From: Siphonodentalium dalli | Taxonomy: Eukaryota; Mollusca; Scaphopoda; Gadilida; Siphonodentaliidae | DNA length: 64,000 nucleotides | Assembly (NCBI GenBank): GCA_032622095.1 | Contig: CP136065.1 | Location: forward strand, 23,941,141-24,005,140 | Direction: 5' to 3' | Shown here: one piece after another, positions 1 to 27,400 of the stretch | Position numbering within the stretch: position 1 is the stretch's first letter | Layout: each line of letters opens with the position of its first letter | The notes under the pieces: model-generated | Told to the model about the DNA's origin: nothing | Databases searched by the model: none | What the model saw: the letters and a program-made list of their open reading frames with translations, nothing else | Translations under genes and position numbers: made by a program

Positions 1-3000
1 CATGTGAGACGAAGAGTCAGGTAAGTAATATCTACATGTACAGTGAGACGGAGAGTCAGGTAAGTAATATCTACAGGGCATGTGAGATGAAGAGTCAGGT
101 AAGTAATATCTACATGTATAGTGCGACGAAGAGTCAGGTAAGTAATATCTACAGGGCATGTGAGATGAAGAGTCAGGTAAGTAATATCTACATGTATAGT
201 GAGATGAAGAGTCAGGTAAGTAATATCTACAGGGCATGTGAGATGAAGAGTCAGGTAAGTAATATCTACAGGGCATGTGAGATGAAGAGTCAGGTAAGTA
301 ATATCTACATGTACAGTGAGACGGAGAGTCAGGTAAGTAATATCTACAGGGCATGTGAGATGAAGAGTCAGGTAAGTAATATCTACATGTATAGTGCGAC
401 GAAGAGTCAGGTAAGTAATATCTACAGGGCATGTGAGATGAAGAGTCAGGTAAGTAATATCTACAGGGCATGTGAGATGAAGAGTCAGGTAAGTAATATC
501 TACATGTATAGTGAGATGAAGAGTCAGGTAAGTAATATCTACAGGGCATGTGAGATGAAGAGTCAGGTAAGTAATATCTACATGTATAGTGAGATGAAGA
601 GTCAGGTAAGTAATATCTACATGTATAGTGAGATGAAGAGTCAGGTAAGTAATATCTACAGGGCATGTGAGATGAAGAGTCAGGTAAGTAATATCTACAG
701 GGCATGTGAGATGAAGAGTCAGGTAAGTAATATCTACATGTATAGTGAGATGAAGAGTCAGGTAAGTAATATCTACAGGGCATGTGAGATGAAGAGTCAG
801 GTAAGTAATATCTACAGGGCATGTGAGATGAAGAGTCAGGTAAGTAATATCTACATGTATAGTGAGATGAAGAGTCAGGTAAGTAATATCTACAGGGCAT
901 GTGAGATGAAGAGTCAGGTAAGTAATATCTACAGGGCATGTGAGATGAAGAGTCAGGTAAGTAATATCTACAGGGCATGTGAGATGAAGAGTCAGGTAAG
1001 TAATATCTACAGGGCATGTGGGTTGAAGAGTCAGGTAAGTAATATCTACAGGGCATGTGAGATGAAGAGTCAGGTAAGTAATATCTACAGGGCATGTGAG
1101 ATGAAGAGTCAGGTAAGTAATATCTACAGGGCATGTGAGATGAAGAGTCAGGTAAGTAATATCTACATGTACAGTGAGATGAAGAGTCAGGTAAGTAATA
1201 TCTACAGGGCATGTGAGATGAAGAGTCAGGTAAGTAATATCTACATGTATAGTGAGATGAAGAGTCGGGTAAGTAATATCTACAGGGCATGTGAGACGGA
1301 GAGTCAGGTAAGTAATATCTACAGGGCATGTGAGACGAAGAGTCAGGTAAGTAATATCTACAGAGCATGTGAGATGAAGAGTCAGGTAAGTAATATCTAC
1401 AGGGCATGTGAGATGAAGAGTCAGGTAAGTAATATCTACAGGGCATGTGAGACGAAGAGTCAGGTAAGTAATATCTACAGGGCATGTGGGTTGAAGAGTC
1501 AGGTAAGTAATATCTACAGGGCATGTGGGTTGAAGAGTCAGGTAAGTAATATCTACAGGGCATGTGGGTTGAAGAGTCAGGTAAGTAATATCTACAGGGC
1601 ATGTGGGATGAGAGTCAGGTAAGTAATATCTACAGGGCATGTGGGATGAGAGTCAGGTAAGTAATATCTACAGGGCATGTGAGACGGAGAGTCAGGTAAG
1701 TAATATCTACAGGGCATGTGAGACGAAGAGTCAGGTAAGTAATATCTACAGAGCATGTGAGATGAAGAGTCAGGTAAGTAATATCTACAGGGCATGTGGG
1801 ATGAGAGTCAGGTAAGTAATATCTACAGGGCATGTGGGATGAGAGTCAGGTAAGTAATATCTACAGGGCATGTGGGATGAGAGTCAGGTAAGTAATATCT
1901 ACAGGGCATGTGGGATGAGAGTCAGGTAAGTAATATCTACAGGGCATGTGGGATGAGAGTCAGGTAAGTAATATCTACAGGGCATGTGGGATGAGAGTCA
2001 GGTAAGTAATATCTACAGGGCATGTGAGACGGAGAGTCAGGTAAGTAATATCTACAGGGCATGTGAGACGAAGAGTCAGGTAAGTAATATCTACAGAGCA
2101 TGTGAGATGAAGAGTCAGGTAAGTAATATCTACAGGGCATGTGGGATGAGAGTCAGGTAAGTAATATCTACAGGGCATGTGGGATGAGAGTCAGGTAAGT
2201 AATATCTACAGGGCATGTGAGACGGAGAGTCAGGTAAGTAATATCTACAGGGCATGTGAGACGAAGAGTCAGGTAAGTAATATCTACAGAGCATGTGAGA
2301 TGAAGAGTCAGGTAAGTAATACCTACAGGGCATGTGAGATGAAGAGTCAGGTAAGTAATATCTACAGGGCATGTGAGACGAAGAGTCAGGTAAGTAATAT
2401 CTACAGGGCATGTGGGTTGAAGAGTCAGGTAAGTAATATCTACAGGGCATGTGGGTTGAAGAGTCAGGTAAGTAATATCTACAGGGCATGTGGGTTGAAG
2501 AGTCAGGTAAGTAATATCTACAGGGCATGTGGGATGAGAGTCAGGTAAGTAATATCTACAGGGCATGTGGGATGAGAGTCAGGTAAGTAATATCTACAGG
2601 GCATGTGGGATGAAGAGTCGGGTAAGTAATATCTACAGGGCATGTGGGTTGAAGAGTCAGGTAAGTAATATCTACAGGGCATGTGGGTTGAAGAGTCAGG
2701 TAAGTAATATCTACAGGGCATGTGGGTTGAAGAGTCAGGTAAGTAATATCTACAGGGCTTGTGGGTTGAAGAGTCAGGTAAGTAATATCTACAGGGCATG
2801 TGGGTTGAAGAGTCAGGTAAGTAATATCTACAGGGCATGTGAGATGAAGAGTCAGGTAAGTAATATCTACAGGGCATGTGAGATGAAGAGTCAGGTAAGT
2901 AATATCTACATGTATAGTGAGATGAAGAGTCAGGTAAGTAATATCTACATGTATAGTGAGATGAAGAGTCAGGTAAGTAATATCTACAGGGCATGTGGGT

Positions 3001-5340
3001 TGAAGAGTCAGGTAAGTAATATCTACAGGGCATGTGGGTTGAAGAGTCAGGTAAGTAATATCTACAGGGCATGTGGGATGAAGAGTCAGGTAAGTAATAT
3101 CTACAGGGCATGTGGGATGAAGAGTCGGGTAAGTAATATCTACAGGGCATGTGAGATGAAGAGTCAGGTAAGTAATATATACAGGGCATGTGGGATGAAG
3201 AGTCAGGTAAGTAATATCTACAGGGCATGTGGGATGAAGAGTCGGGTAAGTAATATCTACAGGGCATGTGGGATGAAGAGTCAGGTAAGTAATATCTACA
3301 GGGCATGTGAGACGAAGAGTCGGGTAAGTAATATCTATAGGACATGTGAGATGAAGAGTCGGGTAAGTAATATCTACATGTATAGTGAGACGGAGAGTCA
3401 GGTAAGTAATATCTACAGGGCATGTGAGATGAAGAGTCAGGTAAGTAATATCTACATGTATAGTGAGATGAAGAGTCAGGTAAGTAATATCTACATGTAT
3501 AGTGAGATGAAGAGTCAGGTAAGTAATATCTACAGGGCATGTGAGACGGAGAGTCAGGTAAGTAATATCTACAGGGCATGTGAGATGAAGAGTCAGGTAA
3601 GTAATATCTACATGTATAGTGAGATGAAGAGTCAGGTAAGTAATATCTACATGTACAGTGAGACGGAGAGTCAGGTAAGTAATATCTACATGTATAGTGA
3701 GATGAAGAGTCAGGTAAGTAATATCTACAGGGCAGGTGAGATGAAGAGTCAGGTAAGTAATATCTACATGTACAGTGAGACGGAGAGTCAGGTAAGTAAT
3801 ATCTACAGGGCATGTGAGATGAAGAGTCAGGTAAGTAATATCTACATGTATAGTGAGACGGAGAGTCAGGTAAGTAATATCTACATGTACAGTGAGATGG
3901 AGAGTCAGGTAAGTAATATCTACAGGGCAGGTGAGATGAAGAGTCAGGTAAGTAATATCTACATGTACAGTGAGACGGAGAGTCAGGTAAGTAATATCTA
4001 CATGTACAGTGAGATGGAGAGTCAGGTAAGTAATATCTACAGGGCAGGTGAGATGAAGAGTCAGGTAAGTAATATCTACAGGGCATGTGAGATGAAGAGT
4101 CAGGTAAGTAATATCTACAGGGCATGTGGGATGAAGAGTCAGGTAAGTAATATCTACAGGGCATGTGAGATGAAGAGTCAGGTAAGTAATATCTACAGGG
4201 CATGTGGGTTAAAGAGTCAGGTAAGTAATATCTACAGGGCATGTGAGATGAAGAGTCAGGTAAGTAATATATACAGGGCATGTGAGACGAAGAGTCAGGT
4301 AAGTAATATATACAGGGCATGTGAGACGAAGAGTCAGGTAAGTAATATCTACAGGGCATGTGAGATGAAGAGTCAGGTAAGTAATATCTACAGGGCATGT
4401 GAGACGAAGAGTCAGGTAAGTAATATCTACAGGGCATGTGAGATGAAGAGTCAGGTAAGTAATATCTACAGGGCATGTGAGACGAAGAGTCAGGTAAGTA
4501 ATATCTACAGGGCATGTGAGATGAAGAGTCAGGTAAGTAATATCTACAGGGCATGTGAGACGAAGAGTCAGGTAAGTAATATCTACAGGGCATGTGAGAT
4601 GAAGAGTCAGGTAAGTAATATCTACAGGGCATGTGAGATGAAGAGTCAGGTAAGTAATATCTACAGGGCATGTGAGACGGAGAGTCGGGTAAGTAATATC
4701 TACAGGGCATGTGAGATGAAGAGTCAGGTAAGTAATATCTACAGGGCATGTGAGATGAAGAGTCAGGTAAGTAATATCTACAGGGCATGTGAGACGAAGA
4801 GTCAGGTAAGTAATATCTACAGGGCATGTGAGACGAAGAGTCAGGTAAGTAATATCTACAGGGCATGTGAGATGAAGAGTCAGGTAAGTAATATCTACAG
4901 GGCATGTGAGATGAAGAGTCAGGTAAGTAATATCTACAGGGCATGTGAGATGAAGAGTCAGGTAAGTAATATCTACAGGGCATGTGAGATGAAGAGTCAG
5001 GTAAGTAATATCTACAGGGCATGTGAGATGAAGAGTCAGGTAAGTAATATCTACAGGGCATGTGAGATGAAGAGTCGGGTAAGTAATATCTACAGGGCAT
5101 GTGAGATGAAGAGTCAGGTAAGTAATATCTACAGGGCATGTGAGACGAAGAGTCAGGTAAGTAATATCTACAGGGCATGTGGGATGAAGAGTCAGGTAAG
5201 TAATATATACAGGGCATGTGAGACGGAGAGTCGGGTAAGTAATATCTACAGGGCATGTGAGACGGAGAGTCGGGTAAGTAATATCTACAGGGCATGTGAG
5301 ACGGAGAGTCGGGTAAGTAATATCTACAGGGCATGTGGGT
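1..5340 (+). repeat. 39-bp minisatellite array carrying a splice-donor motif
   Basis: About 137 head-to-tail units, open at the left edge of the window. A typical unit reads GAGATGAAGAGTCAG then GTAAGTAATATCTACAGGG then CATGT. Two linker types alternate (AGGGCATGT and ATGTATAGT), and the block after the linker varies (GAGATGAAG, GAGACGGAG, GGGTTGAAG). Some units between about 1600 and 2580 are 38 bp because one A is missing. Longer blocks are themselves repeated: a 7-unit block near the left end (273 bp offset) and a block at about 1592 repeated 345 bp later. The stretch from GTAAGT to CTACA is the most constant part; I saw no unit with GTAAGT broken. Because 39 bp is 13 codons, long frames stay open on both strands. 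I treat these as a by-product and not as a gene. The array probably lies in an intron of CEP112 upstream of the exon at 6306. Confidence 0.97.
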
Positions 5341-5933
5341 TGTCACAAACTGTGACAGAACATGTTACTACTTATAGAACATTATAACATTCTATCTTTT
5401 AAAAACAGTTCAAGTGGAACATATTATAACACTTTAAGTGGAATATTAATGGCATGGATGGTCTTCGTTGTAGGTTATAATATAGAAACTACAGTTATAA
5501 AATTATGAAAATTACCTTAAAAATATACTAATAGTATAGTATAATGATAGTATGAATGCAATATTATCCACAAAACACACTTTGTCCAAGTCAAGCATTT
5601 GTTTATATACAGCACATAAAGAGTGAGCGATAAGCAAAACACTCAACACCCAAGCGATTATTTTAGGAGAGTGATTCACCGTGACCCATTCAACACCAAA
5701 ATCTAGAGTAGTGAGGATTAGCGAGCGATATACCAGTATGTTGTAAACAACATGGTGGCAGTTTTAACCAAATTTTGCTTATCACATACTCTTTATGTAC
5801 TGTACTGTAGCAGAATTTGGCTTTTGTTTACATTACACTGTATTTATGATTGGTGTAAGAACAGTTATAAGAAGGAGCTAGCTACCATAAAAATAAATCC
5901 TTTGTATAATGTTCACTGCTGCTTTGATATAAT
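5341..5933. other. AT-rich spacer, presumed CEP112 intron
   Basis: No exon, RNA gene or clear element is seen. Around 5740-5885 a segment with TTTTGTTTACAT and TATTTATGATTGGTGTAA resembles the inner part of the foldback at 32952-33320, so this is probably a decayed partial copy of that family. Confidence 0.5.
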
Positions 5934-6192
5934 AACCCTTCCATGACTGGAGATTCCTGAAATTTTGCGTAAAACCCTGTGCCAATGCATTCTCTTTTAT
6001 ATGTGAGTCTCCCATATGGAGTCTCACATATATAAGAGAATGTATTGGCCTAATAATATTTACCTTGACCTTGTAAGCCAGTGAATTCTCTTAATATGTG
6101 AGGCTTCCTATGGGAGACTCGCATATATAAGAGAATGCACTGGCCCAGGATTTTTAATGCTGCACCAGTGCAGCTTCCATCACGAAAGGGTT
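5934..6192. mobile_element. Double-hairpin foldback MITE (family P1)
   Basis: The ends are AACCCTTCCATGAC and, inverted, CACGAAAGGGTT. Inside are two successive palindromes, 5981-6050 and 6077-6144, built from arms like GCCAATGCATTCTCTT and AAGAGAATGTATTGGC. The same layout recurs at 17813-18056 and 30366-30622. It has no coding capacity, so it is a non-autonomous element. It ends 113 bp before the CEP112 exon at 6306. Confidence 0.85.
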
Positions 6193-6305
6193 TTAAACTC
6201 TTTATTGTTTCTGGAACCTGAGGGAAATTAGAATAAAAATGAAGTGAATGCAATTAATCTGCTTCCATTAGTCACACATGTACAAGTTTTATATCTCATC
6301 AACAG

Positions 6306-6413
6306 ATGGCGCAAGTGGAGGCTGATTTAAATAAATCCAAACAAATAAGAGAGAAACAAGGAAAAGAATTTGTTCGGCTATCAGAGGAAGCTAACAATCG
6401 GCACAATAAAGAG
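6306..6413 (+). CDS. CEP112: CEP112 exon, first visible (36 codons)
   Basis: Acceptor CTCATCAACAG and donor GAG/GTCAGT, phase 0 on both sides. It encodes MAQVEADLNKSKQIR and a further 21 charged residues ending RHNKE, a helical coiled-coil segment. The ATG at the exon start is most likely internal, because the exon has a good acceptor and the coiled coil continues upstream in CEP112. A foldback element starts only 24 bp after the exon ends. Confidence 0.85.
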
Positions 6414-9400
6414 GTCAGTCTATATAATAATTAAAAAAAGCCTGAGTCATATGCAGAATGAGGTCCCCAGAGGGTGAATTTAGTGACGCTATCCCGCATA
6501 GCAGGCTAGCATCACTAAATTCACCCTCTGGGGACCTCATTCTGATTATGCCTCATCTTCTCTGGAAATTTTCTCTATTATAAGATTTCTATAGAATCTT
6601 CTTCACGTAGATTCTATTTCTTTTTTAGTTTATTTTATCTATATCCCCAAATTGGCAGACGACACATTGCATAATCGAGGTTATGGGTGTACATCACAAT
6701 ATTCACCATTTGGGAACTTCAATCTGAGTCTATGTTTCCCATAGCAGATGAGGCCATGCAGATTGAGGTTCACAGAGGGTGAATTTAGTGATGCTAGCCT
6801 GCTATGTGGGATAGCGTCACTAAATTCACCCTCTGGGGACCTAATTGATGGTGTTTAGATACTGGTTTTCAAAAGAGGCAATTTATCAGGTTTATCATCC
6901 AATAAACCATTAGATTGCCGAAAAATAAAGTGTGCATATTGTTTCCTTGCCTAATAACGGAAAATATTAAAAAGCCTTCTTAAAATATGTTTTTAACTTA
7001 TTCTTATATGCTTAACTTATTATCGGAACATTTGAATGAATATGAATCTTTGAGTGGTCCACTTGTGTGTCCTTCATTCATCTGATGCTTCTGTGACCAG
7101 AGATGTATACACTTTCTCTTAACATCTGATGCTTCTGTGACCAGAGATGTATACACTTTCTCTTAACATCTGATGCTTCTGTGACCAGAGATGTATACAC
7201 TTTCTCTTAACATCTGATGCTTCTGTGACCAGAGATGTATACACTTTCTCTTAACGTTTGATGATTCTGTGACCAGAGATGTGTACACTTTCTCTTAACG
7301 TCTGATGCTTCTGTGACCAGAGATGTATACACTTTCTCTTAACATCTGATGCTTCTGTGACCAGAGATGTATACACTTTCTCTTAACATCTGATGCTTCT
7401 GTGACCAGAGATGTATACACTTTCTCTTAACGTTTGATGATTCTGTGACCAGAGATGTGTACACTTTCTCTTAACATCTGATGCTTCTGTGACCAGAGAT
7501 GTATACACTTTCTCTTAACATCTGATGCTTCTGTGACCAGAGATGTATACACTTTCTCTTAACATCTGATGCTTCTGTGACCAGAGATGTATACACTTTC
7601 TCTTAACATCTGATGCTTCTGTGACCAGAGATGTATACACTTTCTCTTAACATCTGATGCTTCTGTGACCAGAGATGTATACACTTTCTCTTAACATCTG
7701 ATGCTTCTGTGACCAGAGATGTATACACTTTCTCTTAACATCTGATGCTTCTGTGACCAGAGATGTATACACTTTCTCTTAACATCTGATGCTTCTGTGA
7801 CCAGAGATGTATACACTTTCTCTTAACATCTGATGCTTCTGTGACCAGAGATGTATACACTTTCTCTTAACATCTGATGCTTCTGTGACCAGAGATGTAT
7901 ACACTTTCTCTTAACATCTGATGCTTCTGTGACCAGAGATGTATACACTTTCTCTTAACATCTGATGCTTCTGTGACCAGAGATGTATACACTTTCTCTT
8001 AACATCTGATGCTTCTGTGACCAGAGATGTATACACTTTCTCTTAACATCTGATGCTTCTGTGACCAGAGATGTATACACTTTCTCTTAACATCTGATGC
8101 TTCTGTGATCAGAGATGTATACACTTTCTCTTAACGTCTGATGCTTCTATGACCAGAGATGTATACACTTTCTCTTAACGTCTGATGATTCTGTGACCAG
8201 AGATGTATACACTTTCTCTTAACATCTGATGCTTCTGTGACCAGAGATGTATACACTTTCCCTTAACATCTGATGCTTCTGTGACCAGAGATGTGTACAC
8301 TTTCCCTTAACATCTGATGCTTCTGTGATCAGAGATGTATACACTTTCTCTTAACATCTGATGCTTCTGTGACCTGAGATGTATACACTTTCTCTTAACA
8401 TCTGATGCTTCTGTGACCAGAGATGTGTACACTTTCTCTTAACATCTGATGCTTCTGTGATCAGAGATGTATACACTTTCTCTTCATTCATCTGATGATT
8501 CTGTGACCAGAGATGTATACACTTTCTCTTAACATCTGATGCTTCTGTGACCAGAGATGTATACACTTTCTCTTCATTCATCTGATGCTTCTGTGATCAG
8601 AGATGTATACACTTTCTCTTAACATCTGATGCTTCTGTGACCAGAGATGTATACACTTTCCCTTAACATCTGATGCTTCTGTGATCAGAGATGTATACAC
8701 TTTCTCTTAACATCTGATGCTTCTGTGATCAGAGATGTATACACTTTTATCTTAACATCTGATGCTTCTGTGACCAGAGATGTATACACTTTCTCTTAAC
8801 ATCTGATGATTCTGTGACCAGAGATGTATACACTTTCTCTTAACATCTGATGCTTCTGTGACCTGAGATGTATACACTTTCTCTTAACATCTGATGCTTC
8901 TGTGACCAGAGATGTATACACTTTCCCTTAACATCTGATGCTTCTGTGATCAGAGATGTATACACTTTCTCTTAACATCTGATGCTTCTGTGACCAGAGA
9001 TGTATACACTTTCTCTTAACATCTGATGCTTCTGTGACCAGAGATGTATACACTTTCTCTTAACATCTGATGCTTCTGTGACCAGAGATGTGTACACTTT
9101 CTCTTAACATCTGATGCTTCTGTGACCAGAGATGTGTACACTTTCTCTTAACATCTGATGCTTCTGTGACCAGAGATGTATACACTTTCTCTTAACATCT
9201 GATGCTTCTGTGACCAGAGATGTGTACACTTTCTCTTAACATCTGATGCTTCTGTGACCAGAGATGTATACACTTTCTCTTAACATCTGATGCTTCTGTG
9301 ACCAGAGATGTATACACTTTCTCTTAACATCTGATGCTTCTGTGACCAGAGATGTATACACTTTCTCTTAACATCTGATGCTTCTGTGACCAGAGATGTG

Positions 9401-12400
9401 TACACTTTCTCTTAACATCTGATGCTTCTGTGACCAGAGATGTATACACTTTCTCTTAACATCTGATGCTTCTGTGACCAGAGATGTGTACACTTTCTCT
9501 TAACATCTGATGCTTCTGTGACCAGAGATGTATACACTTTCTCTTAACATCTGATGCTTCTGTGACCAGAGATGTATACACTTTCTCTTAACATCTGATG
9601 CTTCTGTGACCAGAGATGTGTACACTTTCTCTTAACATCTGATGCTTCTGTGACCAGAGATGTATACACTTTCTCTTAACATCTGATGATTCTGTGACCA
9701 GAGATGTATACACTTTCTCTTAACATCTGATGCTTCTGTGACCAGAGATGTGTACACTTTCTCTTAACATCTGATGCTTCTGTGACCAGAGATGTGTACA
9801 CTTTCTCTTAACATCTGATGCTTCTGTGACCAGAGATGTATACACTTTCTCTTAACATCTGATGATTCTGTGACCAGAGATGTATACACTTTCTCTTAAC
9901 ATCTGATGCTTCTGTGACCAGAGATGTATACACTTTCTCTTAACATCTGATGATTCTGTGACCAGAGATGTATACACTTTCTCTTAACATCTGATGCTTC
10001 TGTGACCAGAGATGTGTACACTTTCTCTTAACATCTGATGCTTCTGTGACCAGAGATGTGTACACTTTCTCTTAACATCTGATGATTCTGTGACCAGAGA
10101 TGTATACACTTTCTCTTAACATCTGATGCTTCTGTGACCAGAGATGTGTACACTTTCTCTTAACATCTGATGCTTCTGTGACCAGAGATGTGTACACTTT
10201 CTCTTAACATCTGATGCTTCTGTGACCAGAGATGTATACACTTTCTCTTAACATCTGATGCTTCTGTGACCAGAGATGTATACACTTTCTCTTAACATCT
10301 GATGCTTCTGTGACCAGAGATGTGTACACTTTCTCTTAACATCTGATGCTTCTGTGACCAGAGATGTATACACTTTCTCTTAACATCTGATGATTCTGTG
10401 ACCAGAGATGTATACACTTTCCCTTAACATCTGATGCTTCTGTGACCAGAGATGTATACACTTTCTCTTAACATCTGATGATTCTGTGACCAGAGATGTA
10501 TACACTTTCTCTTAACATCTGATGCTTCTGTGACCAGAGATGTGTACACTTTCTCTTAACATCTGATGCTTCTGTGACCAGAGATGTATACACTTTCCCT
10601 TAACATCTGATGCTTCTGTGACCAGAGATGTATACACTTTCTCTTAACATCTGATGCTTCTGTGATCAGAGATGTATACACTTTCCCTTAACATCTGATG
10701 CTTCTGTGACCAGAGATGTATACACTTTCTCTTAACATCTGATGATTCTGTGACCAGAGATGTATACACTTTCTCTTAACATCTGATGCTTCTGTGACCA
10801 GAGATGTGTACACTTTCTCTTAACATCTGATGCTTCTGTGACCAGAGATGTATACACTTTCTCTTAACATCTGATGCTTCTGTGACCAGAGATGTATACA
10901 CTTTCTCTTAACATCTGATGCTTCTGTGATCAGAGATGTATACACTTTCTCTTAACATCTGATGCTTCTGTGATCAGAGATGTATACACTTTCTCTTAAC
11001 ATCTGATGCTTCTGTGATCAGAGATGTGTACACTTTCTCTTAACATCTGATGCTTCTGTGACCAGAGATGTATACACTTTCTCTTAACGTCTGATGATTC
11101 TGTGACCAGAGATGTATACACTTTCTCTTAACGTCTGATGATTCTGTGACCAGAGATGTATACACTTTCTCTTAACGTCTGATGATTCTGTGACCAGAGA
11201 TGTATACACTTTCTCTTCATTTATCTGATGATTCTGTGACCAGAGATGTATACACTTTCTCTTAACGTCTGATGATTCTGTGACCAGAGATGTATACACT
11301 TTCTCTTAACGTCTGATGATTCTGTGACCAGAGATGTATACACTTTCTCTTCATTTATCTGATGATTCTGTGACCAGAGATGTATACACTTTCTCTTAAC
11401 GTCTGATGATTCTGTGACCAGAGATGTATACACTTTCTCTTCATTTATCTGATGATTCTGTGACCAGAGATGTATACACTTTCTCTTAACGTCTGATGAT
11501 TCTGTGACCAGAGATGTATACACTTTCTCTTAACGTCTGATGATTCTGTGACCAGAGATGTATACACTTTCTCTTAACGTCTGATGATTCTGTGACCAGA
11601 GATGTATACACTTTCTCTTAACGTCTGATGATTCTGTGACCAGAGATGTATACACTTTCTCTTAACATCTGATGCTTCTGTGACCAGAGATGTATACACT
11701 TTCTCTTAACGTCTGATGATTCTGTGACCAGAGATGTATACACTTTCTCTTAACATCTGATGCTTCTGTGACCAGAGATGTATACACTTTCTCTTAACAT
11801 CTGATGCTTCTGTGACCAGAGATGTATACACTTTCTCTTAACATCTGATGCTTCTGTGACCAGAGATGTATACACTTTCTCTTAACATCTGATGCTTCTG
11901 TGACCAGAGATGTATACACTTTCTCTTAACATCTGATGCTTCTGTGACCCGAGATGTATACACTTTCTCTTAACATCTGATGCTTCTGTGACCAGAGATG
12001 TATACACTTTCTCTTAACATCTGATGCTTCTGTGATCAGAGATGTATACACTTTCTCTTAACATCTGATGCTTCTGTGACCAGAGATGTATACACTTTCT
12101 CTTAACATCTGATGCTTCTATGACCAGAGATGTATACACTTTCTCTTAACATCTGATGCTTCTGTGACCAGAGATGTATACACTTTCTCTTAACATCTGA
12201 TGCTTCTGTGATCAGAGATGTATACACTTTCTCTTAACATCTGATGCTTCTGTGACCAGAGATGTATACACTTTCTCTTAACATCTGATGCTTCTATGAC
12301 CAGAGATGTATACACTTTCTCTTAACGTCTGATGATTCTGTGACCAGAGATGTATACACTTTCTCTTAACATCTGATGCTTCTATGACCAGAGATGTATA

Positions 12401-15400
12401 CACTTTCTCTTAACGTCTGATGATTCTGTGACCAGAGATGTATACACTTTCTCTTAACGTCTGATGATTCTGTGACCAGAGATGTATACACTTTCTCTTA
12501 ACATCTGATGCTTCTATGACCAGAGATGTATACACTTTCTCTTAACGTCTGATGATTCTGTGACCAGAGATGTATACACTTTCTCTTAACATCTGATGCT
12601 TCTATGACCAGAGATGTATACACTTTCTCTTAACGTCTGATGATTCTGTGACCAGAGATGTATACACTTTCTCTTAACGTCTGATGCTTCTGTGACCAGA
12701 GATGTATACACTTTCTCTTAACGTCTGATGATTCTGTGACCAGAGATGTATACACTTTCTCTTAACATCTGATGCTTCTGTGACCAGAGATGTATACACT
12801 TTCCCTTAACATCTGATGCTTCTGTGACCAGAGATGTATACACTTTCTCTTAACATCTGATGCTTCTGTGACCAGAGATGTATACACTTTCTCTTAACGT
12901 CTGATGATTCTGTGACCAGAGATGTATACACTTTCTCTTAACATCTGATGCTTCTGTGACCAGAGATGTATACACTTTCCCTTAACATCTGATGCTTCTG
13001 TGACCAGAGATGTATACACTTTCTCTTAACATCTGATGCTTCTGTGACCAGAGATGTATACACTTTCTCTTAACATCTGATGCTTCTGTGACCAGAGATG
13101 TATACACTTTCTCTTAACATCTGATGCTTCTGTGACCAGAGATGTGTACACTTTCTCTTAACATCTGATGCTTCTGTGACCAGAGATGTATACACTTTCT
13201 CTTAACATCTGATGCTTCTGTGACCAGAGATGTATACACTTTCTCTTAACATCTGATGCTTCTGTGACCAGAGATGTATACACTTTCTCTTAACATCTGA
13301 TGCTTCTGTGACCCGAGATGTATACACTTTCTCTTAACATCTGATGCTTCTGTGACCAGAGATGTATACACTTTCTCTTAACATCTGATGCTTCTGTGAC
13401 CAGAGATGTATACACTTTCTCTTAACGTCTGATGATTCTGTGACCAGAGATGTATACACTTTCTCTTAACATCTGATGCTTCTGTGACCAGAGATGTATA
13501 CACTTTCTCTTAACATCTGATGCTTCTGTGACCAGAGATGTATACACTTTCTCTTAACATCTGATGCTTCTGTGACCAGAGATGTATACACTTTCTCTTA
13601 ACATCTGATGCTTCTGTGACCAGAGATGTATACACTTTCTCTTAACATCTGATGCTTCTGTGACCAGAGATGTATACACTTTCTCTTAACATCTAATGCT
13701 TCTGTGACCAGAGATGTATACACTTTCTCTTAACATCTGATGCTTCTGTGATCAGAGATGTATACACTTTCTCTTAACATCTGATGCTTCTGTGACCAGA
13801 GATGTGTACACTTTCTCTTAACATCTGATGCTTCTGTGATCAGAGATGTATACACTTTCTCTTAACATCTGATGCTTCTGTGACCAGAGATGTATACACT
13901 TTCTCTTAACATCTGATGCTTCTGTGACCAGAGATGTATACACTTTCTCTTAACATCTGATGCTTCTGTGACCAGAGATGTATACACTTTCTCTTAACAT
14001 CTGATGCTTCTGTGACCAGAGATGTGTACACTTTCTCTTAACATCTGATGCTTCTGTGATCAGAGATGTATACACTTTCTCTTAACAGCTGATGCTTCTG
14101 TGACCAGAGATGTGTACACTTTCTCTTAACATCTGATGCTTCTGTGATCAGAGATGTATACACTTTCTCTTAACATCTGATGCTTCTGTGACCAGAGACG
14201 TCTACACTTTCTCTTAACATCTGATGCTTCTGTGACCAGAGACGTATACACTTTCTCTTAACATCTGATGCTTCTGTGACCAGAGATGTATACACTTTCT
14301 CTTAACATCTGATGCTTCTGTGACCAGAGATGTATACACTTTCTCTTAACATCTGATGCTTCTGTGACCAGAGATGTATACACTTTCTCTTAACATCTGA
14401 TGCTTCTGTGACCAGAGATGTATACACTTTCTCTTAACATCTGATGCTTCTGTGACCAGAGATGTATACACTTTCTCTTAACATCTGATGCTTCTGTGAC
14501 CAGAGATGTATACACTTTCTCTTAACATCTGATGCTTCTGTGACCAGAGATGTATACACTTTCTCTTAACATCTGATGCTTCTGTGACCAGAGATGTATA
14601 CACTTTCTCTTAACATCTGATGCTTCTGTGACCAGAGATGTATACACTTTCTCTTAACATCTGATGCTTCTGTGACCAGAGATGTGTACACTTTCTCTTA
14701 ACATCTGATGCTTCTGTGATCAGAGATGTATACACTTTCTCTTAACAGCTGATGCTTCTGTGATCAGAGATGTATACACTTTCTCTTAACATCTGATGCT
14801 TCTGTGACCAGAGATGTGTACACTTTCTCTTAACATCTGATGCTTCTGTGACCAGAGATGTATACACTTTCTCTTAACATCTGATGCTTCTGTGACCAGA
14901 GATGTGTACACTTTCTCTTAACATCTGATGCTTCTGTGATCAGAGATGTATACACTTTCTCTTAACATCTGATGCTTCTGTGACCAGAGATGTATACACT
15001 TTCTCTTAACATCTGATGCTTCTGTGACCAGAGATGTATACACTTTCTCTTAACATCTGATGCTTCTGTGACCAGAGATGTATACACTTTCTCTTAACAT
15101 CTGATGCTTCTGTGACCAGAGATGTGTACACTTTCTCTTAACATCTGATGCTTCTGTGATCAGAGATGTATACACTTTCTCTTAACAGCTGATGCTTCTG
15201 TGACCAGAGATGTGTACACTTTCTCTTAACATCTGATGCTTCTGTGATCAGAGATGTATACACTTTCTCTTAACATCTGATGCTTCTGTGACCAGAGACG
15301 TCTACACTTTCTCTTAACATCTGATGCTTCTGTGACCAGAGACGTATACACTTTCTCTTAACATCTGATGCTTCTGTGACCAGAGACGTATACACTTTCT

Positions 15401-18400
15401 CTTAACATCTGATGCTTCTGTGACCAGAGATGTATACACTTTCTCTTAACATCTGATGCTTCTGTGACCAGAGATGTATACACTTTCTCTTAACATCTGA
15501 TGCTTCTGTGACCAGAGATGTATACACTTTCTCTTAACGTCTGATGATTCTGTGACCAGAGATGTATACACTTTCTCTTAACATCTGATGCTTCTGTGAC
15601 CAGAGATGTATACACTTTCTCTTAACATCTGATGCTTCTGTGACCAGAGATGTATACACTTTCTCTTAACATCTGATGCTTCTGTGACCAGAGATGTATA
15701 CACTTTCTCTTAACGTCTGATGATTCTGTGACCAGAGATGTATACACTTTCTCTTAACATCTGATGCTTCTGTGACCAGAGATGTATACACTTTCTCTTA
15801 ACATCTGATGCTTCTGTGACCAGAGATGTATACACTTTCTCTTAACGTCTGATGATTCTGTGACCAGAGATGTAACACTTTCTCTTGACATTGTTTTTGA
15901 TTGATTTGATACTCTTTTATGTGAATAATAAAAATATAGGTAATTCACTTTGAGATCAAAGATGTTTTTAACAGACATGATTTGGCGCCGTGCATCCTTT
16001 AGTTTCAATAGTAGTCAACAAAATATCTGCAGTCATAGAAAACAAAGCACATAGGTGCTAACTTAGATAATCTTATATGTATGGCTCTCAGAAAATATGT
16101 ATGTAAAATTCCTTGCTTTACAAATAAAAAAACTCCCAACAACTAGGGGCTTGTGGCAATTTAGAAAGACTCTGTACTCAGTAGGGAAAATATGAGAGAA
16201 AACTAAATTAATGAGCAGCATCTGATTTTATTTGAGATTCAATTCAACATCTATTTGAGAAATGGATGTTGATTTTCTTGCGTTCCACGGTGCAGCCCTC
16301 GAAATTAGGAAAAATGTCCCATGGTAAATTTAATGCTGTGGCATTATGGATTCCATATGTTGCCACGCATATCCCACAGCATTGCTTATTGCCGCGGCCA
16401 AATTTGAGGACTGCCTGGTGTATAGAACACGTTGGTCTGTCATTTTGTTTGGGATGCAAAAACTTACCACACATAACAATGTCAGACCAACTTGCATCCA
16501 TACTCCAAGGCACTTATCCATAATCCATGGAAGGCAAGAAAAGCAACATTGTCGTAGGACCCTATACTTTATGCCTGTCATTCCGCATCTTTCTAACACA
16601 TTTTATTCATTTCTAATTAACAGGTTACTGAGTTAAAAGACTCACTGGAGCAGCAGAAGGAACATATGAGACGAGAGCATTGTAGAGAGTGTGAATCTCT
16701 GAAGTCGGAGTTAAAGAAAGAAATCGAGAAGATGGGAGAACTGCATTTAATAGAAACCAAAGAGTTACACACTAAACACAAACAGTCGAAAGAGAGAAGT
16801 AACAAGGTAACATGCTATTTACTTATTAACCCTTTACCCAACAGAACGGCCCTGTGCCAATGCATTATCTTATATATGCGAGTCGACCATAGGTCGCCTC
16901 GCATATATAAGAGAATGCATTGGCTTAACACATTAAAAATTATAAAATTGTTAAAGAATGTAAGAAAAAATGGTAAAAAGTGTTAAAAAAAGGCCAATGC
17001 ATTCTCTTATATATGCGAGGCGACCTATGGTCGACTCGCATATATAAGAGAATGCATTGGCACAGGGCATAACTGTAACTATCACAATGTGGTCAACGAG
17101 CCGGTTCCAACGATATCCATATTTGTATGGTTCTATTGAGACAGACCGAAGATATTTTAGGCTGTTGAAGCTTTATTTGGCCGGTTTTGGCCGGTTTGTT
17201 GGGTAAAGGGTTAAAGTTATAAATATGATCTTCAAATCTCAAATTAAACCTAGTAATTGTTTGTGTATTTTTTTTTATCAAACATTAAAATTATGTTGAT
17301 GCGGCAAAGTCAAATTCCTGTTTCTCCGGCCTGGGCGCATGGTCCCGAAACCCAGCATTTGTAACCTTTTTATTTGCGTTCCATCTATGGGAGACTCGCT
17401 TATATAAGAGAATGCACTGGTAAAGGATATTTAATGATGCATCAGCGCAGCTCCCATCATGAAAGGGTTAAAACGTGCATAATTCTGATTATTATATCTG
17501 ATAAAATACCTTACATTTTTATAGAGCATTGATGCTTCAGAGCAACAAGTTAGAGATTTACAAGAAGAGGTCATGCAAGGGACACAACTCCGGAAACAGC
17601 AGCTTGTAGAATTGGGTCTGCTGAGGGATGACGAGAAGCAGAAAATGAAGAGAGAACATGAAAATGAGGTCAGTGTTCAAAAACTTAAGTTTTTTTGAGA
17701 AAACTAATAAATCTCAGATGTGCATATTACCAGGGTTCGCGCTGGCCAAAAAATCTTTTGCCTATTTTTTGGCCATTTCTGAATATGTTTTCAGAACCTT
17801 TGACCAAATTATCTCTTTCATGACTAAAGCTTCCTGAAATTCTGTGAAAACCCTGTGCCAATGCATTCTCTTATATATGCTAGGGAGCCTCGCATATATA
17901 AGAAAATACAATGGCCTAACAATATTTACCTTGACCTTGTAAGCCAGTGCATTTTCTTATATATGCGAGGCTGCCTAAGGGAGACTCGCATGCATAAGAG
18001 AATGCACTGGAACATGATTATTAATGCTGCCCCCCACCACAGCTCCCGAAAGGGTTAGAAACCAAAAATACATGATCGTTGAGAAAACTGAAACTAAAAC
18101 AAAAACATACATAAAAAAAACAAAGCAAATCTTAAAATAAATCAAAGGAGACTAAAACATACTCAAAAAACTAACTGATCATTTATGAGATGGACTTATA
18201 TGAGAAAATCGATACTGCAAATGTTCACCGATGAGAGCCACAAAACTTTAAAATAGGTATTCTTGATATCGTATTTCAATATAAATGAGTACAAATTTGT
18301 TTATTAGGCCACAATAAAATAATTGCAAGATTTTCATCCCCGCCAGCCATGATTTTTAAGCCGCATCAAAATATTTTATTTATATTAAATATTGCTACCG

Positions 18401-21400
18401 AGTATTTACCTAGACCAATATGTATAGCCGAGATTTAATCGCATTGTGTATCAAAGTATTTTTACTGATCGCAGTAAGTCAAGTAATATTGGAACATAAT
18501 ATTGAGAGATCTCATGGTTATTGTCATGCAAAGAATTGAATGGGCTGGCGCCCATACCTTAGTAGATCGATATGTGTACACAGTTGATGATACTAAGAGT
18601 ATCATCAATATATAACATCGATTCGCAGGATGAGAGCTGGGCAATGCTGCTCCGTTCCCCGATATGCCACCCCAATTTTGAGCTAGTGCGGTTAGGAGTA
18701 AAATTGTGCGGACTCAATGTAGTCCGACAAGTATGTTGGTGACATTGTTGGATTTTTAGGACCTTTTATAGTTTGATCCTGACATACTCTCACATGGTGA
18801 ATCACCCAGATTTATGGTTATTATTTAGTAAAATATAGTATAAATGCATGTTTTTGTTTTTTCAAAAGAATATATCCAAATATTCCTTGCCAGTGTCTTC
18901 ATCTCCCCGATGTACGTTTACATAATTCCAACAAATCAGATGTTTTGGCTAAGACTATTATATGACACCATTCATATCCCATATACGCGAAGCAGAGGTG
19001 CAAATAATTGCCCTTTCCTAATGTTTCTAGTGGTGACATAATATATATGCTTCATGTGGCATTGAACACTAATCAACCAATATATGTGAGCCCCCCTCCC
19101 CCCCCAGCCCCACTTTTGAAAAAAAAGTGGATGAAAATCTAGCAATTTATTTTTATTATGGCCTTATTGAAACCATAAATCAATAAAGTATTATTAATTG
19201 ATTAAAAAAGGACATAGTGCTAGGTTTCTAGAGGCTAATCATCATTGTTTAGATTAGTAAGCATATGTGATATCCGATAAATTGTTATTCAGACGTAAAC
19301 GACCGAGCAACTACTGATTAACTGTTTGATTGATGTAAGGGTTTCACAGTAAGATGTTGCGATATTCGGGGAGGTGATTGTCGACTATTGGCTCAAAATT
19401 GTTGGCTGAAAGTTTGGCCAAATGAAATTTTCTTTGGCCTTTTTCAGATTATCCCCCAACAGCATGAACCTTGAATATTGCATTTTGATTTGATATCCTA
19501 TTTTTCGGGCCACTAAAATCCATTCTATGAAACATTTTTTAAAGACTAAAGGCCTTTGAAGTGGGTTCATGCGAAATAACATAAAAGTCTAAAACAATGA
19601 TTACCAACAAGTACATGAAAAAATAGATTGACTTTGTTCTTATTTTCATTTATTATATTAATAACTCTCCAATAATGAGATTCTCATATCAAAACCACTG
19701 TTATGTAAACATTACTGTTACAGTGTAATTACTGATAACAGTCCAATTAGTCCAATAAGATACCGAAGGTAAAAGGTCAAAGCATTGAAAAATACTCTCA
19801 AAATCATATTCAGACTAAAATAATTCATCTATCTACACATTTAGTGATGTTTGTTGACAAATCACTGTAACAGTGTTGTTTATTTAACTTATGTAATTAA
19901 CTTATTGGAGAACTATCAATAATGAATATAAGAACAAAGTTCACTATTTCTCCATGTTCTTCTTAGTGGTGATAACAGACTTTTATATGTTTTGCATTTA
20001 CTCACTGCGAGTGCCCTGGGTACCGTTAGTTGTATTATTTTTCCAAGAAAACACAGGAGAAACATCTGATGTTATACATATCTCGCTTAAATTGTGAATA
20101 ACGTTCAATCATCAGAGCTGAATGTAATGTTCAATTAGGAAATAGAGGATCTCTAATGAATTGAAATTCTATGTGAAATTTCTTATGGCATTGCTTCGAA
20201 TTTGAGATCCATTTTTATCACATAATCACATTTTAGCAAGGAAAAACGATTTCAAAATGGCTGGGGTTAAAAAAAAATATTGATTTTCTTATCACAACCA
20301 AAGCGGAAGAAAAGACACCTTCAAGAAAAAATATAGTTTCATTTTAAATATGTCTTTTCATGTTGAAAAAATTGTTCAAACACCCTTATCACCCATGTTT
20401 ATCTTACAGTCAACACTAAACAACCCAACACAAATCGAATATCAAAATTATTTTCTAATTAACATAATAATAAAGTTCCGGCATTGACATCAACATCATT
20501 GTGCTAAGCTTTTATGTCACTGTGCATTCCAATAATAGTGTCTTACTAAATAATATGAGGCTGGGTTTAGGGGCTAATTATGTGATAAAAACAAGCCTTG
20601 AAATAGGGTGTCTGTCATTTGCAGAATGAGGTCCCCAGAGGGTAAATTTAGTGATGCTACCCCGCATAGTGGGCTAGCATCACCAAATTCACCCTCTGGG
20701 AACCTCATTCTGCTGAGGTGTAGCGGGGTAGCATCACTAAATTCACCCTCTGGGGACCTCATTCTGCAAATGACAGACACCCTATTTCAAGGCTTGGATA
20801 AAAAACATTGTTTCATTACAGACGCTCCTATTGACTGGTCTCTCTGATGTAAAATTATTATTAGCTCAACTTTACTTTGTAAAGTTTGAGCTATTGCCAT
20901 GGCTTGGTATCCGTCGTGCGTGTGTGTGTGCGTGATTCGTCAACAATTTCCTTTAGCACGGGCTACAGTTCGTACCTTTGGTCCGATTATTATTAAATTT
21001 GTCATGGATGTTGACATTGACATGTAGATGGGAACGAGTCATTTTGGGGTCATTCGGCCGAAAAACATGGCCGCCCGTGACCATTTTGGATTTCAAAATT
21101 CAATCCATTAGCACGGGCTACAGGCCGTACTGTTTGTCTTATTATCATGAAATTTGTCATGGATGTTAATATTGACATGTAGATGGGAACGAGTAATTTT
21201 AGGGTCATTCGGCCAAAAAACATGGCCGCCGGCAGCCATCTTAGATTTTACTCTTTGTATGACTAAATTCTTTAGCCCGGGCTACAGGTCGTACTTTTAG
21301 TCTGATCATCATAACATTTGTCAAGAATGTTAATAATGACATGTAGATGGGAACGAGTCATTTTGGGGTCATCGGCCAAAAAACATGGTCGCCAGCAGCC

Positions 21401-24400: not shown

Positions 24401-27400
24401 GTTTGAATCTGCTTTGAGTTCAGTAAAGCATTTTAATGTTGATACATGTTATTTTCTGTATTTATTACATACCTTTGAGTTCAGTAAAGCATTTTAATGT
24501 TGATACATGTTATTTTCTGCATTTTAATGTTGATACATGTTATTTTCTGTATTTATTACATACCCTTCTGGTTGATAGTTTCATTTCTTATTCATGTCAC
24601 TGCAGTCATAACAAAAATTTGAAAATCAACATTATCTACACCTCACACCATCTCTATTGTGAGTGAGTTCCAGACTGTATTCCACATACGGATGAATCAC
24701 ATATTATTCAGCAGATGAACCACATATTATTCAGTGGATGAACCACATATTATTCAGTGGATGAACCACATATTATTCAGCAGATGAACCACATATTATT
24801 CAGCGGATGAACCACATATTATTCAGCGGATGAACCCCATATTATTCAGCGGATGAACCACATATTATTCAGCGGATGAACCACATATTATTCAGCGGAT
24901 GAACCACATATTATTCAGTGGTAGCAGTTCCATTGAAACATGTGTTTGATGTAATTTGGTATCGAATGGGATTCTTTTTCTGTATGAGTTGTTGTCTCAG
25001 ATTTGCATCATTATTTGCAGATGATCTCAGAATTACAGTCAACAGTTGAAGGGTTACGACAAGAAATCAAACGGTTAGTATTATATTCTTACATTGTTAT
25101 ACAATACACCACATCAAACTCTGTTCAAACTGCACTGGTTAGTTGACATATGGTTGCCAAGTGGGGCGTGACATCAAATACAGTAATGCCCTAAGTAATC
25201 GACCTCTTAACCAAAGCAGAATTATGGGTAACTTTTCAGGATTTAGTCGGAAATATGGCTTGTTGCCATTCATCGGAAAGCTCTCATGAATGGCAACAAG
25301 CCATATTTCCGACTAAATCCTGAAAAATTACCCATAATTCTGCTTTGGTTAAGAGGTCGATTACTTAGGGCATTACTGTACTTTCAGCTTAGTTTCTTGA
25401 CCCTTTTTATTTAGATGTATTCTCTGATCGGTTATAAAAGTGTACATTGGAATGGTCCATTATTCATCTGGGGGATGTTCAGGATATAGAAGCAGACGAC
25501 AGACAGTTGAATAGATACGATAAGTGCAGAAGGAGTCCTATTAATTAATTGGAGGAAATGTTGAGATAATAAGTTCAACAAACTGCCTCTGAACATTTCC
25601 TACAGGAACTACTCGTCAATGAGTATTTAGTTAAGAAAGGGTTAATAAGGGAACTACTCATCAATGAGTATTTAGTTAAGAAAGGGTTAATAAGGGAACT
25701 ACTCATCAATGAGTATTTAGTTAAGAAAGGGTTAATAAGGGAACTACTCATCAATGAGTATTTAGTTAAGAAAGGGTTAATAAGGGAACTACTCATCAAT
25801 GAGTATTTAGTTAAGAAAGGGTAATAAGGGAACTACTCATCAATGAGTATTTAGTTAAGAAAGGGTTAATAAGGGAACTACTCAATAATGAGTATTTAGT
25901 TAAGAAAGGGTTAATAAGGGAACTACTCATCAATGAGTATTTAGTTAAGAAAGGGTAATAAGGGAACTACTCATCAATGAGTATTTAGTTAAGAAAGGGT
26001 TAATAAGGGAACTACTCATCAATGAGTATTTAGTTAAGAAAGGGTTAATAAGGGAACTACTCATCAATGAGTATTTAGTTAAGAAAGGGTTAATAAGGGA
26101 ACTACTCATCAATGAGTATTTAGTTAAGAAAGGGTTAATAAGGGAACTACTCATCAATGAGTATTTAGTTAAGAAAGGGTTAATAAGGGAACTACTCATC
26201 AATGAGTATTTAGTTAAGAAAGGGTTAATCCTCAGTTGAATTTTAGGTAATCTTTACTCTTAACCCTAGTAATATCATATCCACATGACCATTTAGGGAT
26301 AATAATAGAGTAGTCACACTATATCCGGGTAACACTTGAAACAAACCATCATTGTTGCAATATGATAATTTTATATTTCTGATCAAATGATTCGGTTTCA
26401 AAAATGATTATTCAATAAACGTGGCTCTTATCACAATAGGTTAATCAAGTAAAGGTCTACTCAAGTGGAAATGATCAAGAAAGTGTGTCAAAACAAAATA
26501 GGATTATAACAAAGCATTGACGCGTATCACCATTTCGCCCTGTGAGATCTCAATACAAACTTATTCTGAATAATGATAAACAGATATCCTGATAGCTAAA
26601 AAATAATGACAGTGTATACATGTGATTAAGGCCTTAGTTACCTAGAAACAATACTCAATGTAATAGTCGGTCAAATTTTAAACTCCTAATATAAATTCAT
26701 CCAGGAGATTTATATGATCCTTGACATAATCAGGTAAACTGAGCTTTTGTCAATTGTTATTTGACAGCATTGACACAGCCTCAACTACATTACCATCACT
26801 ATAGAACTTCTGTTGTACTGTGCTGGTGTCTCCATTTCACATAAAATGCATTGGTGAGGGTTAAACTAACTTGTTGGAGGAGATACAATATTATGGTTTG
26901 TCGGACTGTGGTTTATCTTAGAATATATTGACATGTAGTGAGTGAGTTAGTTTTTTTCTTTCCCAACAGGACTAGAGAACAGTGCGATAAGAAATTATCA
27001 GATTCACATGCTAAAGGCAGTTCAGAGAAGAAATCACTACGCCAACACTACACAACCAAACTTGAGGTATATTACAAAACCCTCCTTTACTGTATCCGAG
27101 GAATGACTCTGGTATTAATAACCACATAGTATGTGTGCAACATGGAAATATATCCAAGAATTATTAGACAGGATTTATTGTGGTTCTCAGCATAAGATTT
27201 CACAGTCGAAAAGTCCTGGCTTTATGAGGGTATCACCCCCTCGAGTCTGGAGGTACCACCCCTCCACCTCGAGTCCGGGGTTACGGCAGCTCCCCCTCGA
27301 GTCCGGGATCCAGCTTTAAAAAGGACTTGGAATCTAGGATTCAGTTAATGGATAATAAGCACTATGTGACTAATTCATAGTGAATCAGACATTGTAGAGA

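Follow-up and report, generated by a model that had tools for sequence, protein, structure and literature searches.

The array of splice donors

The DNA analysed, referred to as the window, is a stretch of 64,000 nucleotides of Siphonodentalium dalli (GCA_032622095.1, contig CP136065.1), and it opens inside a long tandem array of splice donors. The motif GTAAGTAAT occurs there 137 times without mismatch, always on the + strand, with the first copy starting at 21 and the last at 5313; 100 shuffles gave 0.90 copies on average and 3 at most. Every one of the 137 copies falls inside a single 39/38-bp array, with 124 spacings of 39 bp and 12 of 38 bp (n = 136), and TRF reports a repeat at 1–5337 with a period of 39 and 137.2 copies. 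Read from the donor, common units consist of GTAAGTAATATCTACA, GGGCAT or TGTA[TC]A, and GTGAGATGAAGAGTCAG. The twelve 38-bp units (GTGGGATGAGAGTCAG type) are confined to a zone at 1581–2582 (+ strand), where the reading frame is shifted. The last donor, closest to the 3' splice site, and the remaining intron occupy 5313–6305 (+ strand); this segment starts with GTAAGTAATATCTACAGGGCATGTGGGTTGTCACAAAC, which we regard as the intron edge from the initial duplication. The RNA fold of positions 1–312 is unremarkable (z +1.65), as 92 of 100 shuffles fold equally well or better, and a structured RNA was rejected on this ground.

The start of the window cuts through the array, whose donors extend in the genome from C5:23918576 to 23946453. 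The whole array comprises 716 donors in 27.9 kb, the last 137 of which lie in the window (1–5337, + strand), and its spacings are 39 bp (699 cases), 38 bp (12) and 40 bp (4). The donors read CAG/GTAAGT in 649 cases and CGG/GTAAGT in 60; GT is intact in all 716 and GTAAGT in 709, the other seven being GTATGT (three), GTAAAT (two), GTAATT and GTAAGA (one each). A first-pass annotation had described tandem consensus donors in 39- or 38-bp units, preceded by CAG or sometimes CGG and complementary to U1, and the present data bear this out: three fetched U1 loci all start with ATACTTACCTG, a sequence that can base-pair with CAGGTAAGTA in the unit. Its further remark that no unit had lost GTAAGT is correct for the window (137/137) and fails for the seven donors of the whole array that retain GT only.

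Host gene and founding exon

A coding exon of 136 nt (C5:23918440-23918575) provides the first array donor as its 5' splice site; it lies 22.6 kb upstream of the window, ends in ...KVQVERNQNLMYSEMKSQ, and has its acceptor, tttcttgcag, 136 nt upstream of the first donor. That the array begins at a real exon end was beyond the reach of the first-pass annotation. The founding exon has a single matching place in the genome, in which a second, array-free copy was sought and not found. Its last 25 bases are exactly repeated in 58 interior units; as the unit consists of an exon end and an intron start, these copies indicate that the donors were copied from a real exon edge. The next coding exon after the array (6306–6413, + strand, 108 nt, MAQVEADLNKSKQIREKQGKEFVRLSEEANNRHNKE) has the acceptor ...catcaacag and the donor gtcagt, so that the donors lie, as annotated earlier, on the sense strand of the intron preceding it. 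No credible Pfam match was obtained for the two exons flanking the array (best E 0.32). The only DUF4485 match found in the genome is located 41 kb upstream on the same strand, and it is on this one exon that the probable identification of the host gene as CEP112 is based. An open in-frame extension of the founding exon is possible from 287 of the 716 donors only (donors 0–286).

Variation among units

Fifteen of the 39 unit sites are invariant, most of them outside the donor, and variability is highest mainly at sites where the exon edge differs from the intron edge. Of 699 units, 330 have the base of the exon edge at site 17, and 329, 328 and 329 have it at sites 19, 20 and 22. Units with GGGTT (18/715) agree with the intron edge and are found mainly on that side of the array, with a mean index of 556 that none of 20,000 shuffles reached when units were treated as independent; three of the 18 are within the first 300 units. 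The exon-edge type is first seen at unit 10 (TGTATA) and unit 21 (TGTACA). Since it is not commonest beside the exon, edge exchange would be old or would have been followed by turnover. Turnover is apparent in the 62 unit types of the array; a 26-unit block is present twice, exactly, at units 58 and 138 of the one assembly, and neighbour identity (0.178 for lag 1, 0.226 for lag 2) exceeds the 0.118 ± 0.012 of shuffles.

Other boundary arrays in the genome

Homology-confirmed exon ends were found at the first donor of 12 of 38 other donor arrays, compared to 0 of 12 reversed-motif controls. The 38 loci (L017–L054) were chosen among the matches listed: 2 from the AGGTRAGT x3 list, 12 from the CAGGTAAGT x3 lists and 24 of the 25 distinguished places from the AAGGTAAGT x3 list, while at least three listed CAGGTAAGT x3 arrays (C1 24.3, 28.1 and 257.64 Mb) were left out. 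Seven loci (L028, L029, L030, L032, L035, L043, L047) have no open frame of at least 18 codons before the first donor; at L029, an alternative first-donor placement 34 bases earlier follows 96 open codons, the peptide of which lay outside the Pfam scan. The fetched sequence of L030, L031 and L035 begins no more than 66 bases before the first repeat and may therefore not reach the real array edge; L020 is ambiguous. Thirty loci were scanned with Pfam, L018 being left out as a near copy of L017, and matches were counted at ten (L019, L023, L036, L037, L038, L040, L041, L045, L048, L054). PDB searches add L024 and L049; with the related pairs L036/L037 and L048/L054, the 12 confirmed loci represent 10 gene families.

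The curated Pfam score is passed by only four of the ten matches (L019, L041, L048, L054). The other six, 26- to 80-residue pieces, fall short of that score, and one of them, L040, is also confirmed by PDB. Weak matches include MgtE (E 0.0033, or 0.02 with a longer query) and EMP70 (E 0.0022), and the matched stretch stops short of the donor by 12 residues in MRPS22, 15 in dynein and 5 in STRAD. In PDB, nothing matched the peptides resembling USP47, dynein, MgtE and TM9SF. Bacterial families at L017 (E 0.066 and 0.082) and Kinocilin at L036 (E 0.66) were discounted as chance matches. Seven more loci (L017, L018, L021, L022, L034, L044, L050) look exon-like by unblinded eye, and the others are ambiguous.

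The 12 controls (L055–L066) were likewise taken among the matches listed and belong to about six repeat families. Five of them have no open frame, and the six peptides scanned with Pfam (L062 being identical to L061) gave no match at E up to 1. PDB searches covered chosen case peptides only and no controls; the Pfam-only case-control comparison yields p 0.046, with a control that is small (12 arrays, ~6 repeat families). Motif counts against reversed motifs point both ways: 5626 versus 3477 for AGGTRAGT x3, 925 versus 452 and 734 versus 221 in two counts of CAGGTAAGT x3, 126 versus 240 for AAGGTAAGT x3 and 788 versus 1943 for the acceptor-like TTTGCAG x3. These five counts are dominated by a small number of long arrays, and two run in the opposite direction; they therefore do not settle whether donor arrays are enriched, and the claim of recurrence rests on the array edges. 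Boundary arrays smaller than that of CEP112 occur in the conserved genes CCT6, MRPS22, STRIP1 and USP47, and one STRIP1 exon has arrays at both boundaries.

Origin and splicing of the array

With a probability of roughly 0.8, we regard the tract as a giant exon-boundary minisatellite of the lancelet 'mirage' type in the probable CEP112 gene, with its first donor mostly in use and with no function of the array needed to account for it. Judging from both edges, a 39-bp stretch spanning the exon–intron junction, composed of 17 exonic bases (GTGAGATGAAGAGTCAG) and 22 intronic bases (GTAAGTAATATCTACAGGGCAT) and offering GTG at both ends as microhomology, would have been duplicated in tandem. Unequal exchange or slippage would have enlarged it to its present size, and exchange with both the exonic and the intronic edge would have seeded the main variant kinds. 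Under this model, an orthologous short intron without the array would begin with GTAAGTAATATCTACAGGGCATGTGGGTTG.

Exon definition would rely on the exon's own acceptor together with the closest donor, so that the first donor would be mostly used; most likely, the remainder of the array is intronic and is removed as such. With plentiful U1, competition between identical donors can reportedly go in favour of the one closest to the 3' splice site, an outcome that would ruin the CEP112 mRNA. Of the 11 genes with exon-confirmed arrays, 4, among them CEP112, have a unit length divisible by 3, as expected by chance; this gives no sign that inner donors have to preserve the frame, so that the functional donor is probably the first. 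If some splicing leaked to the few donors that follow, in-frame steps of 13 residues resembling VSNIYRACEMKSQ would be added, whereas distant donors would give giant exons that, past donor 286, meet an in-frame stop codon.

A unit that stays open for 287 donors leaves room for a coded repeat, and several of the first donors might be used, with CEP112 coiled-coil isoforms growing in 13-residue steps (39 bp being 13 codons) as in the human IFI6 minisatellite, for which two downstream repeat units serving as donors and three mRNA species are reported (PMC4526556). We consider such a ladder unlikely: 7 of the 11 comparable genes have a unit length not divisible by 3, frame and stops are not maintained across the array (4 units of 40 bp and 12 of 38 bp), and 13 is not a heptad multiple. 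Somewhat more doubtful still is the broader proposal that this lineage keeps growing minisatellites from splice sites, at both exon boundaries and in many genes, and that low-level use of the 287 open in-frame donors among 716 near-identical ones gives a coiled-coil length ladder varying by individual and tissue, an allelic length series for 5'-splice-site choice.

A further reading, building on the first-pass annotation, is that GTAAGT is kept by selection for U1 binding, the donors acting as decoys, a sponge or a shield from early polyadenylation; the many alternative transcripts that the annotation also proposed may occur. The retention of GTAAGT in 709 and of GT in all 716 donors is in keeping with such selection, and in raw counts GTAAGT ranks with exonic sites 32–37 (2 units versus 7) and the overlapping sites 39–5 as one of the three six-site windows, out of 39, that vary least. 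However, 15 of 39 sites never vary, mostly outside the donor, and among the 699 units of 39 bp, with rare alleles defined as those seen in at most 12 units, 4 rare alleles fall on the 6 GTAAGT sites and 17 on the 33 remaining ones (p 0.55), and 7 units carry them in GTAAGT versus 58 elsewhere (p 0.39). This test, which has little power, shows no depletion and does not support selection on GTAAGT. Protection from early polyadenylation is conceivable: none of the four poly(A) hexamers looked for is present in the array itself, but AATAAA (5892 and 6232) and TATAAA (5496) lie downstream, in the remaining intron. The genome has at least 42 U1 loci that score above the Rfam cut-off, a number that would make titration by the nascent RNA of one gene implausible. 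Altogether, we hold a selected U1 array to be very improbable.

Long tandem arrays are difficult to assemble, but an artefact is hardly to be expected given 62 ordered unit types, a fetched stretch without N, clean exon and intron edges and similar arrays at other loci. Recursive splicing, in which each CAG/GTAAGT (649 of 716 donors) would be both acceptor and regenerated donor, is scarcely credible, as the common unit has only 6 pyrimidines among the 20 bases before GT and hence no polypyrimidine tract.

Comparison with known systems

Experiments on the choice among equally competing 5' splice sites usually rely on small numbers of engineered copies. CEP112 would offer a natural case, with 716 near-identical donors at one exon, and as the smaller arrays at conserved genes often have frame-breaking units, donor choice should be readable from ordinary RNA-seq. 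The arrays suggest that introns can grow, and possibly arise, from splice sites, on a larger scale than in the lancelet genes named below.

The human IFI6 (6-16) minisatellite has a 12-bp unit in about 26 copies, giving 4-residue steps. It shares with the CEP112 array tandem units that each have a donor at the exon end; in IFI6 the exon is extended by repeat units, and alternative donor use is reported (PMC4526556). Internal tandem repeats at human exon–intron boundaries can alter splicing and create new introns, but differ in having units of on average 30 bp in four copies within recent segmental duplicates (PMC2812944). The intronic minisatellites of C. elegans were set aside as a parallel, since they are regulatory motifs and of a different kind (PMC4039745).

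The closest systems are the amphioxus 'mirages' (Adh, the globins BflGb6 and BflGb9, troponin C and PGBD5), which are reported to be minisatellite-like tandem duplications across an exon–intron boundary like the CEP112 array, with AG/GT signals in many units, 5' and 3' boundaries, homogenised interiors and no disturbance of splicing (PMC3087553, PMC3902484). In the CEP112 array, the unit spans a genuine exon–intron boundary (the first donor is the exon end), the tandem units are of minisatellite size (39 bp, 716 donors) and they contain splice signals (GT in 716/716, GTAAGT in 709/716). BflGb6 has 6 and 3 units of 150–160 bp in its two haplotypes and Adh3 units measure 10–72 bp, whereas the CEP112 array has 716 donors over 27.9 kb, in a 2.23-Gb, 9-contig genome. 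Lancelet genomes amount to about a quarter of 2.23 Gb. The CEP112 array is most likely an extreme case of the known lancelet 'mirage' kind.

Extent and probable host gene of the array

The first-pass annotation had reported about 137 tandem splice donors in the window and no unit with loss of GTAAGT. The count was borne out, exact GTAAGTAAT being present 137 times (0.90 expected), on the forward strand only, with starts from 21 to 5313, in 39-bp tandem units of which 12 are 38 bp long. All 137 keep GTAAGT. Over the whole array, GTAAGT is lost in 7 of 716 donors and GT itself in none. The assembly (2.23 Gb, 9 contigs) was searched in full with the unit core, allowing up to two mismatches. This gave 716 forward and 0 reverse matches, and the places among the matches listed all lie just upstream, on the contig of the window. 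The stretch fetched from this contig holds a single uninterrupted array of 716 donors (C5:23918576 to 23946453), with 62 unit types and spacings of 39 bp (699), 38 bp (12) and 40 bp (4).

The array starts at the end of an exon and not in mid-intron (tttcttgcag/GGAGAAGGATGA...AACCTCATGTACAGTGAGATGAAGAGTCAG/GTAAGTAAT). This founding exon, which encodes ...EKDELIRKIENEKAQQAAASEKSLADLKVQVERNQNLMYSEMKSQ, was found in one place only in the assembly search, and the next exon (108 nt, MAQVEADLNKSKQIREKQGKEFVRLSEEANNRHNKE) lies at window positions 6306-6413; joined, the two had no convincing hit in Pfam (best E 0.32). CEP112 is the likely host gene, because the one match found in the genome to DUF4485, a domain of the CEP112 N-terminus, is on the strand of the array, 41 kb upstream (E 1.4e-7). 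A short, dispersed-looking element (GGGAGACTCGCATAT..AGAGAATGCACT..) occurs on both sides, from 6112 in the window and from 7335 in the fetched locus L009, one copy lying before the founding exon and the other after the array.

Beyond the next exon, and without contact to it, lies a second very large array (window 7079-15891, 44 bp x 200 copies), and two further arrays look young (25605-26229, 45 bp x 14, 98% matches; 49423-50764, 37 bp x 36, 99% matches). AATGAGGTCCCCAGAGGGTGAATTTAGTG and the complementary sequence make up an inverted-repeat element found at 6457-6537, 6818-6842 and 20735-20759; the element's core is similar to the 46-bp unit repeated in an array at C1:267.80 Mb.

Unit anatomy, turnover and a test for selection

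The most frequent unit (191 of 715), written from the donor onwards, is GTAAGTAATATCTACAGGGCAT followed by GTGAGATGAAGAGTCAG, with 22 intronic and 17 exonic bases, and the intron sequence past the last donor is GTAAGTAATATCTACAGGGCATGTGGGTTGTCAC. A duplication between the exon GTG and the intron GTG would produce exactly this 39-bp unit. In the second main unit type, GGGCAT is replaced by TGTA[TC]A, as in the exon itself (CATGTACAGTGAG), and 58 interior units carry an exact copy of the final 25 bases of the exon. At sites 17, 19, 20 and 22, the exon-edge base occurs in 330, 329, 328 and 329 of 699 units, respectively. The GGGTT type (18 of 715) has the sequence of the intron edge and is found mostly on that side of the array, with 3 of the 18 within the first 300 units and a mean index of 556, as high in 0 of 20,000 shuffles that treat units as independent. 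Much of the unit variation thus consists of sequence from one edge mixed with sequence from the other. The exon-edge type is missing from the first 10 units, which counts against a simple gradient, and sites 29, 31 and 38 vary from other causes. Ordinary array turnover is seen in a 26-unit block present twice, 80 units apart, and in adjacent units being more similar than shuffled ones.

Whether GTAAGT is depleted of change was examined with the substitution test that the first-pass annotation had proposed. Rare alleles, defined as those carried by no more than 12 of the 699 units, number 4 in the six GTAAGT sites vs 17 across the remaining 33 (binomial p 0.55), in a test of low power that assumes independence between alleles; the units carrying them number 7 vs 58 (p 0.39). 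Of the 39 six-site windows, GTAAGT (7 units) belongs with exonic 32-37 (2 units) and 39-5 (6 units), which overlaps it, to the three that vary least by raw count. By allele number, 18 of the 39, GTAAGT included, have as few or fewer. Fifteen of 39 sites are invariant, the donor G and T both among them (chance ~0.14). There is thus no sign of selection on GTAAGT, a low-power result that does not show selection to be absent.

Predicted consequences for splicing

Use of the first donor (donor 0) would give an exon of 136 nt and an intron of 28.9 kb, use of donor 286 an exon of 11.3 kb, and use of the last donor an exon of 28.0 kb, an intron of 992 nt and a changed frame. Past the exon, an open frame of (VSNIYRACEMKSQ)n-like repeats extends up to and including donor 286 and ends at a stop in a 40-bp unit. 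For 287 of the 716 donors, the extension is open and in frame. Since the unit comprises thirteen codons, eight of them new, an open frame would not be surprising by chance. In our opinion, exon definition would lead the cell to use mostly the first donor, with, perhaps, a degree of spill-over to the few donors that follow. The genome has at least 42 U1 loci above the Rfam cut-off, with tandem U1 RNA genes at ~2.15-kb spacing at C1:103842444-103879156.

Other boundary arrays and known relatives

Genome-wide tandem donor-motif counts are not enough on their own to establish enrichment. Donor-bearing arrays were found by pattern, among the matches listed, and the sense-strand start of each was fetched. 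At 12 of 38 loci, the peptide encoded immediately before the first donor has a match among known proteins: CCT6 (2.9e-22, PDB), MRPS22 (1.7e-14), USP47 (6.2e-12), STRAD (2.7e-7, PDB), signal peptide peptidase (6.8e-7 and, at a second locus, 2.6e-6), amino acid permease (3e-5; second locus 1e-5), PPP1R12A (1e-5, PDB, the alignment reaching the last residue before the donor), dynein heavy chain (2e-4), EMP70/TM9SF (0.0022) and MgtE/SLC41 (0.0033). Reversed-motif control arrays gave a protein match at 0 of 12 (Fisher one-sided p 0.046 with Pfam alone, 0.022 with PDB, which was applied to case peptides and not to controls); this control set is small, and exons judged by eye were judged unblinded. 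A STRIP1-like exon (L067, C1:21685300-21685970, reverse strand, 1.9e-17) has both boundaries tandemly repeated: a 49-bp array leads into it on the acceptor side, and another (CTCGAACAATG/GTGAGTAGTAAAGATTGTGTGATT) follows on the donor side.

Because unit length is a multiple of 3 in just 4 of 11 genes, CEP112 included, the frame appears not to be protected across boundary arrays, which would fit silent inner donors. In the amino acid permease pair (L036, L037; C2) and in the signal peptide peptidase pair (L048, L054; C6), the two related sequences share both the boundary array and the exon that bears it, so these arrays were probably copied along with the gene or are older than the duplication.

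A search of titles and abstract beginnings turned up no description of donors repeated in their hundreds, a weak result, subscription literature lying mostly outside the search. Two downstream units of the human IFI6 donor minisatellite are described as used (PMC4526556), and boundary repeats are treated for human duplicates (PMC2812944); PMC2572611 and PMC2915984 go no further than to cite the original IFI6 minisatellite paper. Lancelet mirages are described as tandem repeats across exon-intron boundaries with AG/GT signals, and splicing is said to be undisturbed (PMC3087553, PMC3902484). The CEP112 array shares the testable features of mirages and is classed here as one of them, extreme in size.
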